This document shows, piece by piece, positions 1-54,022 of a DNA stretch of 64,000 bases. Location of the stretch: the NCBI RefSeq assembly GCF_019492055.1, contig NZ_JAICBX010000009.1, forward strand, positions 1-64,000, read 5' to 3'. A program made the position numbers and the translations under genes. The DNA is from Flavimaribacter sediminis (GTDB lineage: Bacteria > Pseudomonadota > Alphaproteobacteria > Rhizobiales > Rhizobiaceae). Under the pieces are notes generated by a model, which was not told the DNA's origin, made no database searches, and worked only from the letters and a program-made list of their open reading frames with translations. The stretch's first letter is position 1. Each line of letters starts with the position of its first letter.

Positions 1-126
1 CTTTGTTTCGGGATTTGGCTTTGTTTCGGGATTTGGCTTTGTTTCGGGATTTGGCTTTGTTTCGGGATTTGGCTTTGTTTCGGGATTTGGCTTTGTTTCG
101 GGATTTGGCTTTGTTTCGGGATTTGG
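1..126. repeat. Tandem array of seven 18-bp units, cut by the window edge
   Basis: Seven exact head-to-tail copies of CTTTGTTTCGGGATTTGG fill bases 1-126; the array may continue to the left. Because 18 is divisible by three, every frame is open. On the minus strand one frame reads a repeated hexapeptide PKQSQI, entered by codons for about 24 residues after an in-frame stop at 224-222. The same peptide, with a 19-nt exact DNA match, occurs once at 52161-52179 inside a minus-strand gene. The array could therefore be the repeat tail of a related protein gene or a free minisatellite. No start codon with a ribosome site is visible. Confidence 0.95.
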
Positions 127-340
127 CGATTTTCGCGCGCCGGCGGCGGCGTCACAGCCTGCTTTCGTGCGATGAGGCGGCTTTTCGGCGCGGCGCATCC
201 TAGCACATACGCCGACGAAAATCAGCAAGAATGTTCTCTATTTGTTCTTTCGTGGCTGCGTTGTTCTGGACATCGGATTTAGCCCGGCATGAGGCAGGAA
301 GGAGAATTTGCGCAGGTTAATGCAAGCGGCAATCGCCTCG

Positions 341-52045: not shown

Positions 52046-52762
52046 AGGCGGCGGCCGGCCCCGACAGGGCGTGCGGCAAGCCGTTCCGTCGGCGCTGAAA
52101 CCGGACTTGCGGCCGTGCGTGAGCGGCGCGGGCGCGGATATCGCCGTGTCTTCGGATGCAATTTGGCTTTGTTTCGGGAATTCGGGATTCTGCGGCTCGT
52201 CCGGCGTGTCCGGCGGCAGGTCTTCGGCCTCGGCGGGGCAATCGATCCAGGCCTTGAACGCCTTTTTCCGCCGGGCGCGGGCCTCGTTGCGGTAGCGCCT
52301 CAGCAGGCGGCCGGGATCTTCCATGCGGCGCGCAGTGCGCGGGTCTACAAGCGCGGTGATGAGGCGCATCACCCGGCGGTCTTCCGACCGGGTGAGACTT
52401 TCGCCGGCGAGCGCCCGCTTCATCAGTTCGGCGTCGTCGCAATGGTCCGGGTAGGGGGCGGCCAGGTTTACGCCGGCTTCAAAGTCCCTGAGCGCGCGTT
52501 CGCAGGATTCAAGCCGGGCCTCGGCTTCCGCCAGCGCCAGGGCGCAGAAGCTGCGCTCGTCGCAGGGAACGAAATCGGCGAGGCTCAAATCGGGCCGGCC
52601 GAGGATGATGCGGAGCCACAGGCCGACGCGCGCCTTGTCAGGCTTCGCGGTCGCGCCGTGCCGGCGGGCGTTGCCGGAAACAGCGGCCTTGCCGGCCGGC
52701 GTTTTGGGGCCTGTGCTTTTGGCGGCGTTCGCCCGGTTGCGGCGGGCGATGTCGGTTGTCAC
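52046..52762 (-). CDS. NARRHG-type hypothetical protein without a defined 3' end
   Basis: The N terminus has the hallmark NAAKSTGPKTPAGKAAVSGN then ARRHG, found in a large family of uncharacterised, often repeat-associated proteobacterial proteins. A helical middle follows (DRRVMRLITALVDPRTARRM, LLRRYRNEARARRKKAFKAW). After QNPEFPKQSQIAS, homology to anything sensible ends, yet the frame stays open right through the antisense of the acyl-CoA synthetase and the tRNA. The natural stop is therefore missing; the boundary given here is the end of the convergent gene. PKQSQI is the hexapeptide encoded seven times by the array at 1-126. Confidence 0.6.
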
Positions 52763-52950
52763 TGCTCTGTTTGGTCAGGGTTGAAGGCTTGCGACAGGGT
52801 GTGCAGTCTGGAAGCCATGAACGATGCCTTGGTATGATTTTGGGGGTAGGCTTCATAGCACGGATAGCGCGAAATTGCAAGGAATTGTTCACTTTTTGTT
52901 CTGTGATAGGGTTGGCCGTACTCGTTCGACACAGTGATGTTTTTGGCAAG

Positions 52951-53079: not shown

Positions 53080-53164
53080 GGAGCACCTGCCTCTCTCCTT
53101 CCGCGCCGCGGACGCGGCGCCGCTGGATGGCGGGTCAGGCCCGCAATGAGGGCAGGGGGGAAGG
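53041..53164. repeat. Segment duplicated at 54150-54274 (copy 1)
   Basis: It starts with GCGCTCGCCAGGGCGGCGGA, the last codons of the HicB fragment, and runs on through a REP-like unit (CGCGCCGCGGACGCGGCGC ... CGGGTCAGGCCCGCAATGAG). Copy 2 differs at scattered bases only, so both the gene end and the repeat moved together. Confidence 0.8.
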
Positions 53165-53876: not shown

Positions 53877-53965
53877 ATGTATGATCTATACGGAAATCCC
53901 GTACTGATCTCAAGGGGAATTATACCGGGTTCCCGTAGCAGCGGCTGTCGTTTTCATCATTCTCC

Positions 53966-54022
53966 TACCGCGCCGCGGACGCGGCGCCGCTGGATGGCGG
54001 ATCGGGGTCCGCCATGAGGCCT
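53966..54022. repeat. REP-like element
   Basis: CCGCGCCGCGGACGCGGCGC followed by CGCTGGATGGCGGATCGGGGTCCGCCATGAGG (spanning to 54018) matches the family, with the inner palindrome TGGCGGATCGGGGTCCGCCA. It starts about 90 bp upstream of the broken brnT. Confidence 0.8.

Follow-up and report, generated by a model that had tools for sequence, protein, structure and literature searches.

Clusters of short repeats dispersed between genes are known in Enterobacteria as REPs and BIMEs, with an IHF-binding variant termed RIP. They often lie between facing genes and vary in copy number, and IHF sites occur in the REP clusters of E. coli. REPIN-RAYT systems show long vertical persistence. Direct repeats accompanied by AT-rich or bent DNA are also features of integron attI sites and of iteron plasmid origins, and the integrase promoter of the integron is LexA-controlled and thus SOS-linked.

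We describe here a dispersed repeat whose unit also builds an 18-bp tandem array. Its clusters resemble REPs and BIMEs in being intergenic, often between facing genes, in possessing an IHF-like site and in varying in copy number. They differ in that the unit is non-palindromic (TGGCTTTGTTTCGG / CCGAAACAAAGCCA, without dyad), in that predicted transcripts fold no better than shuffled sequences, and in that, wherever the unit was found to have a LexA-type promoter of its own, it follows this promoter in one constant orientation and in helical phase. With REPIN-RAYT systems they share the existence of few gene-bearing and many gene-less copies of one element; unlike in those systems, the genes concerned (orfA and narrhg) are without known family and there is no palindromic REP pair. 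Searches with NARRHG and OrfA gave no Pfam or NCBIfam family, and so no sign of a Y1 tyrosine transposase. An SOS-linked promoter, together with cassettes beside sites at two loci, recalls integron attI. Unlike integrons and iteron origins, however, the element is present in about 50 chromosomal copies, and no integrase or Rep gene was noticed, by reading alone, beside the clusters read. As in the LexA regulon of Alphaproteobacteria (excerpt of PMC12700426), the promoter carries a GTTC-N7-GTTC box that is also present at the host's own lexA; unlike in that regulon, most element promoters drive no visible gene, only arrays of units.

An 18-bp tandem array at the end of a contig

The window, by which we mean the whole 64,000-nucleotide stretch of DNA that was analysed, has its first base at one end of C13, a contig of 82,635 bp; the genome totals 5.69 Mb in 13 contigs. 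Positions 1..127 (plus strand) are the right end of an array of 18-bp units. The seven perfect copies described in an earlier note were confirmed as 7.06 perfect units, Tandem Repeats Finder giving 7.1 copies with 100% matches over 1-127. Eight places in the window lie within 3 mismatches of the 18-mer, seven of them exact (shuffle mean 0.05). The whole genome contains 15 exact copies, seven at the window start, seven at the end of contig C11 and one on C6; 14 of the 15 belong to the array.

The terminal 145 bp of C11 have the identical 18-bp period, and the window opens with 127 bp of it. As 145 equals 127 + 18, this is what a 127-mer assembly graph would be expected to leave at an unresolved repeat. 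On this reading the array has at least 8 copies in this genome. In a relative assembled into a single contig (G001, 6.06 Mb), both array flanks enclose 19 units.

Four reading frames are open through the array: PKQSQI and NPETKP on the minus strand, and LCFGIW and ALFRDL on the plus strand. PKQSQI, on which the earlier note had based its interpretation, is indeed encoded on the minus strand; since three other frames are open too, it is one of several readings and holds no privileged place. On C11 the left flank consists of an ABC-transporter ATPase gene (a label taken from reading of the ORF), its intergenic gap, one further unit and then the array. No related gene is thus found on the left, and the proposal to see in the array a repeat tail belonging to a paralogue of the NARRHG family, or a tail lost by the NARRHG-type gene of the window, had to be given up.

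The unit is dispersed in mostly intergenic clusters

The 14-bp core of the unit, TGGCTTTGTTTCGG, forms about 50 clusters at least in the window genome, mostly intergenic, with 1 to about 20 direct units each. The earlier note had held that occurrence of the 18-mer all over the genome in non-coding DNA would speak against its reading. For the core this is in substance the case, mostly outside genes, whereas the exact 18-mer is nearly confined to the array. Our 50 cluster entries are those among the places listed, so that their number is at least 50; clusters of variant units (e.g. C5:1545105) and the unit at C13:52164 stand outside them, and eight of the entries consist of one unit only, and some of these lie within a gene or next to one (L137, L148, L145).

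The 13-mer GGCTTTGTTTCGG, with at most 1 mismatch, occurs 187 times in the genome (68 forward, 119 reverse), the copies being grouped into clusters of 1-9 units. As the 13-mer reads the same backwards, its reversed control equals the query and is uninformative; asymmetric unit patterns gave 0 in the control. Alignment of 155 units yielded the consensus AATCTGGCTTTGTTTCGGGAATTnnnnTTTTC. Orientation of neighbouring genes was determined for 46 of the 50 clusters, four without a neighbour on one side being dropped: the neighbours are facing genes in 26 cases, genes of one direction in 9 and 6, and diverging genes in 5, as called by our own codon model, in which errors occur. Regular placement along the chromosome was unsupported for 46 cluster positions in G001 (coefficient of variation of gaps 0.80 versus 0.97 for random placement, P 0.08; after merging neighbours, P 0.20).

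With at most 1 mismatch, the 18-mer was detected in 3 of 41 genomes, which belong to a single genus. Among 249 genomes of the order, a 20-base form of the unit was found only in that of the window. A 21-base form was searched for in a collection of 84,980 species, from which records near that of the window were possibly left out, and matched only ih9 and MnEN-MB40S. The latter is assigned to GTDB genus SPNT01 (excerpt of PMC9476993). The core has so far been found only in this one marine Rhizobiaceae genus. Five forms of the unit core found no mention in the open-licence PMC literature, and no title or abstract opening there on LexA with repeats or non-coding RNA described such an element.

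Other repeats were seen along the way. A recurring palindromic REP-like sequence, CTCATTGCGGGCTTGACCCGCAATCCAG / CATGCCGGATCAAGTCCGGCATCCAG, is present in the window at 350-480, 600-730, 800-870, 53100-53160 and 53960-54020, and also within the unit spacers of one cluster (L158, C5:1194.6k), where spacings are near 125 bp. Two clusters (L128, C6 168.5 kb; L153, C9 207.7 kb) lie directly behind sequences resembling tRNA 3' ends, not behind protein genes. Two genomes of another family of the order (G060, G137; L243-L268) contain a dispersed TTGGGTTCGTTTCGCAGAAT that resembles the unit core, with a conserved GGCCAAATAGC...TTACGCGAAA block to its left. Because no LexA-type box was found in the loci read, we do not claim this family as the same element.

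A conserved LexA-type promoter reads into the units

Of 50 clusters (among them the C11 end, which has no right flank), 26 have an exact GTTC-N7-GTTC box no more than 300 bp beyond the last unit; on the other side none of the 50 has one, with a background of 0.013. The lexA promoter of the window genome itself has the box GAACACAAATGGAAC, of the form GAAC-N7-GAAC, and GTTCN7GTTC is the LexA motif of Caulobacter (excerpt of PMC12700426). On the strand leading toward the units, the consensus beside the box comprises a -35 element TTGCTG and, 17 nt on, a -10 element TGCTAT.

From the 26 exact-box sites a promoter matrix was built, these sites themselves being scored leave-one-out. Thirty of 49 clusters score above the 99th percentile of the null, compared with 0 of 50 on the other side; the 19 remaining clusters lie below the threshold, and some clusters have lost the box. 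The matrix is likewise passed by 26 of the 35 clusters examined in G001 and by 16 of 21 in a second relative (G002), the other side giving 0. The null maximum, 57.1, equals the score of the promoter that belongs to the second cluster in L133 and is therefore taken not to be a chance hit.

The predicted promoter of the array itself lies on the minus strand and was outside the training set. Its LexA-type box GTTCTCTATTTGTTC (233..247; GAAC-N7-GAAC on the transcribed strand) is followed by a predicted -35 TTGCTG (223..228) and, 17 nt from it, a predicted -10 TGCTAG (200..205), with a matrix score of 50.5 against a null 99th percentile of 18.9. Between promoter and promoter-proximal unit extends a predicted transcribed leader (128..193), whose start point is estimated from the promoter match and which has similar sequence in G001. 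The box is 127 bp from the start of the nearest unit, the same distance as in G001. Among all clusters, leaders from promoter to units measure about 33-90 nt (median 60). The promoters are mostly without visible gene and face only unit arrays; there are at least 30 such sites in the genome.

We compared promoters between species in 25 of 45 ortholog pairs, chosen for an exact box in the window genome, which favours the box on that side. Identity amounts to 97% in the LexA half-sites and 70% in the intervening N7, to 98% in the unit, to means of 89% in the -10 and 87% in the -35, and to 74% in the leader. The 26 bases after the box are 60% identical overall, bases 2-6 showing 44-60%. At the level of aligned sequence, promoter and units are thus far better conserved between species than their surroundings.

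Units keep helical phase with their neighbours and with the promoter

Distances between adjacent units, in which every distinct value of a cluster enters a single time, show maxima near 35, 45, 56 and 66 bp. In each of the three genomes they fit a period of 10.5 bp best (R 0.53, 0.63 and 0.69), and none of 2,000 smoothed resamples was as strong. Since two preferred spacings alone would also yield a period near 10, we asked whether phase learned from spacings of up to 46 bp predicts the longer ones, which it does (n = 19, 20 and 14; P 0.003, <0.0001 and <0.0001). As these three genomes share ancestry, the phase results do not amount to three separate proofs.

Distances between the LexA box and the promoter-proximal unit have maxima at 105, 115 and 126 bp. 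Best-fitting periods are 10.25, 11.0 and 11.75 bp, not exactly 10.5, at which R is 0.58, 0.78 and 0.62. When the phase was taken from the shorter distances, its prediction of the long ones reached P 0.0035, 0.012 and 0.17 (n = 8, 6 and 3, the last for G002). In 24 of 34 ortholog pairs the unit-to-box distance differs by no more than 1 bp. In the window array this distance equals 12.1 turns, which places the promoter-proximal unit in phase with the box. The internal spacing of the pure 18- and 19-bp arrays, the window array included, is off the 10.5-bp phase.

A common face shared by the units and the LexA box was unsupported when up to three nearest units were considered (R 0.14 at 10.5 bp, 0.41 at 11.0). 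Only neighbour relations are fixed, each step being rotated by about 100 degrees. Intrinsic curvature from T-tracts was rejected as a candidate, the weak T periodicity in the unit logo being explained by neighbouring units. Because neighbouring units, and the nearest unit and the LexA box, keep helical phase, we take the units to act as DNA sites.

The promoter-distal end often carries an IHF-like site

At its far end the element has an AT-rich tract beside the stop of the facing gene. The IHF consensus is WATCAANNNNTTR. With at most 1 mismatch and in either orientation, 31 of 46 clusters (of the 50 entries, four were dropped) have an IHF-like WATCAANNNNTTR in the tract that precedes the promoter-distal unit, seven of them an exact one. 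Two hundred block shuffles gave a mean of 9.8 and a maximum of 18, and AT-matched windows elsewhere 10-24%.

Some copies carry genes, narrhg alone or orfA and narrhg

One gene-bearing copy lies in the window, on the minus strand. The conserved part of narrhg (52187..52762) has a GTG start and encodes 192 aa, in a frame open to 50048. A single unit, TGGCTTTGTTTCGGGAATTCG, was located by unit search at its 3' end (52164..52184, plus strand). The 19-nt exact match ATTTGGCTTTGTTTCGGGA reported earlier at 52161-52179 is present, at the point where the conserved NARRHG part ends (52187). Upstream follow a 19-codon remnant of orfA (52759..52818), MASRLHTLSQAFNPDQTEQ and a stop, which retains beginning and end of orfA with the middle missing, and the LexA-type box GTTCACTTTTTGTTC of the narrhg promoter (52887..52901; matrix score 29.6).

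The genome contains four full narrhg copies, with a LexA-type box upstream and 1-2 units at the 3' end of each, which bears out the view that array and NARRHG gene share an element. Within 320 bp upstream, three of the four reach matrix scores of 22-30; the copy at C8:54585 has no score there because its box is about 730 bp upstream, beyond orfA. Gene-bearing copies carry either narrhg alone or orfA and narrhg, and the MnEN-MB40S copy has the same orfA-narrhg order. In the genus the narrhg frame has no stop at the unit, and in 11 full copies it is longer than the matched part by about 75 to 764 codons, counting the upstream portion.

Relatives of narrhg were found on plasmids of Sulfitobacter and Gemmobacter (Rhodobacterales), with 37 and 35% identity. 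Each is preceded by another ORF, that of Sulfitobacter being orfA-like by eye, and unit-like sequences, CAGAAACAAAGCCA and CGAAACGAACCCA, lie 4 and 24 nt past the stop. Sulfitobacter narrhg stops just before its unit, unlike the genus copies. Of 15 more distant NARRHG genes, 3 or 4 (one doubtful) have a unit-like sequence with 2-3 mismatches within 150 bp of the stop; in G301 and G431, of one family, it follows the gene in opposite orientation. For these distant genes the link with the unit is suggestive only. Of 385 genomes of the class, 14 match the NARRHG profile, in most cases along its first 40 residues.

NARRHG gave no Pfam or NCBIfam family at E 1, and OrfA none above the cut-off. The predicted fold of NARRHG is too poor for use (pLDDT 48.5); OrfA was modelled from single sequence as a helical bundle (pLDDT 73.9). 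PHROGs searched with a longer NARRHG copy returned weak matches, the best (E 0.00066) to a family of unknown function. Phage or virus origin was rejected: there was no NARRHG match in phages at E 0.01, nor in viral contigs by pattern search, and two plasmid records were found instead.

Clusters are stable in place and variable in content

A counterpart at the same flank in a relative was found for 45 of 50 clusters, a figure that leaves out L145+1 and L146 (whose matches rest on narrhg/orfA sequence), L145+0 and L137. By flank matches alone, 39 of 50 meet a cluster-bearing locus in a relative, and six of eight further clusters checked are present in G001 (L023, L045, L125, L128, L130, L136). 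The left flank of L153 has no unit within 1.7 kb in G001 and is the only possible empty site met. Unit number is free to change between species, for instance from 4 to 10.

All units of the window array have GGGATTT; in G001, 18 of 19 have GGGATCT and one GGGTTCT. This supports the earlier suggestion of recent expansion, accompanied by homogenisation. A second pure array (L130, C6:354.9k) consists of 19-bp units with GGCTTTG, among them five full-core copies of TGGCTTTG, and its counterpart in G001 (L271, 1675.9-1677.3 kb) has 12 copies of TGGCTTCG, all with GGCTTCG. The LexA box is degenerate at this 19-bp array in both genomes. To judge from these variants, each pure array (18 bp and 19 bp) is homogenised to a different variant in each species, i.e. 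subject to within-locus concerted evolution.

Two loci hold cassettes. In the window species, two element copies flank an usher/spore-coat-U operon of about 5 kb (L133, C6 778.7-790.0 kb), where both relatives have a single element. At L129, two element copies in G002 enclose an HTH gene together with a small gene whose HipA-like match is below threshold; G001 has a related insert of about 1.9 kb, and the window species a single element. The single element looks like a hybrid, its left side matching copy 1 and its right side copy 2; this is clear in L133 and in L129 compared with G002, and less clear in L129 compared with G001. On these comparisons, recombination between element copies would explain the cassette loci. 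The cassette-bearing stretches of the relatives are L104 in G002 and L122/L072 in G001 (1527.9-1530.3 kb). A third split cluster, in G001, encloses what reads as an ordinary-looking transposase gene. At another G001 locus (L270, 5563.2-5564.7 kb), a palindromic insertion of roughly 195 bp with CTAGTGG... ends lies in the promoter region of the cluster; it is absent from the window genome.

Possible function and alternative explanations

Our best reading, which we put forward tentatively and with less than even confidence, is that the array represents the repeat part of a dispersed, non-coding, SOS-controlled nucleoprotein element. LexA would keep the promoter of the element shut. A dedicated protein, most likely NARRHG and/or OrfA supplied by gene-bearing copies, would bind the units side by side; these two are named as candidates because of the company they keep with the unit, and on that basis only. 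IHF may bend the far end, so that the element would fold into a nucleoprotein complex interacting with the promoter. Once DNA damage removes LexA, transcription would pass through the array, and the complex would be built or remodelled. The 18-bp array of the window would then be an expanded and homogenised form of a unit cluster.

The strongest rival has the same anatomy. It sees in the clusters miniature versions of a mobile or recombination element under LexA control, which in full would consist of promoter, orfA, narrhg, units and IHF site; the units would be recognition or crossover sites for gain and loss of DNA. We regard this as a real possibility, albeit short of probable. It draws on a graded series of copies, from promoter-orfA-narrhg-unit (L171, L077) through narrhg with a deleted orfA remnant to promoter and units only, on the orfA-narrhg pair on plasmids of another order, and on the cassettes between two element copies at L133 and L129. 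These two loci favour a role in recombination, yet ordinary homologous recombination between direct repeats would account for them as well. Against mobility stand the 45 of 50 clusters shared at the flank with a relative and the single possible empty site, and the promoters of gene-less copies are constrained; moreover, no recombinase family was found for NARRHG or OrfA in Pfam or NCBIfam.

Alternatively, the product might be an RNA: some 40 SOS-induced small RNAs with repeated CCGAAACAAAGCC would titrate an RNA-binding protein or a small RNA. We consider this unlikely. The conserved promoter does read into the units in fixed orientation, the same motif ends the narrhg frames, and in predicted transcripts the unpaired fraction is 0.63 in units versus 0.46 in spacers; A-rich motifs, however, are unpaired through composition, and 35 predicted transcripts gave no folding signal (mean z 0.05 +- 0.21). 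An Rfam search of 20 of the 50 cluster loci returned, above the gathering score, one tRNA and nothing else. A decoy RNA accounts for the promoter but not for the helical phase, for which, whether among units or with the promoter, an RNA offers no reason.

A CRISPR-like or iteron-origin-like array is very improbable. The layout of direct repeats, variable spacers and an AT-rich tract with an IHF-like site would suit it, but a genome has about 50 such places, at many loci both the units and the sequence beside them are retained from species to species, and the promoter is at the end opposite to a CRISPR leader. A coding origin of the array, as repeat tail of a NARRHG paralogue, is hardly credible and was rejected, for although an 18-bp period keeps frame and the narrhg frame is open through its unit, neither flank read contains narrhg, spacings of 19, 35, 44 and 46 elsewhere break any frame (unit spacings of the other clusters spread over codon phase 45/39/34), leader indels are a multiple of 3 in 5 of 31 cases, and in Sulfitobacter a stop codon precedes the unit.

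To return to the SOS-controlled nucleoprotein element, a more complete and rather speculative picture can be drawn, which we think doubtful in its entirety. Fifty-odd SOS-triggered promoters, most of them geneless, would transcribe phased, IHF-assisted arrays bound by the orfA-narrhg products, and damage would remodel dozens of fixed sites or open them to gene exchange.

Dispersed bacterial repeats are usually judged inert or selfish. Here, dozens of loci show three signs of use in their sequence alone: the damage-type promoter and the unit are conserved, and the spacing is locked to the helix. They make directly testable the idea of an SOS response that acts on sites of the chromosome without a protein product. 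NARRHG proteins, so far uncharacterised, gain a candidate DNA target. The 18-bp array at the window start and the 19-bp array at C6:354.9k are, moreover, clean cases of concerted evolution within a locus.
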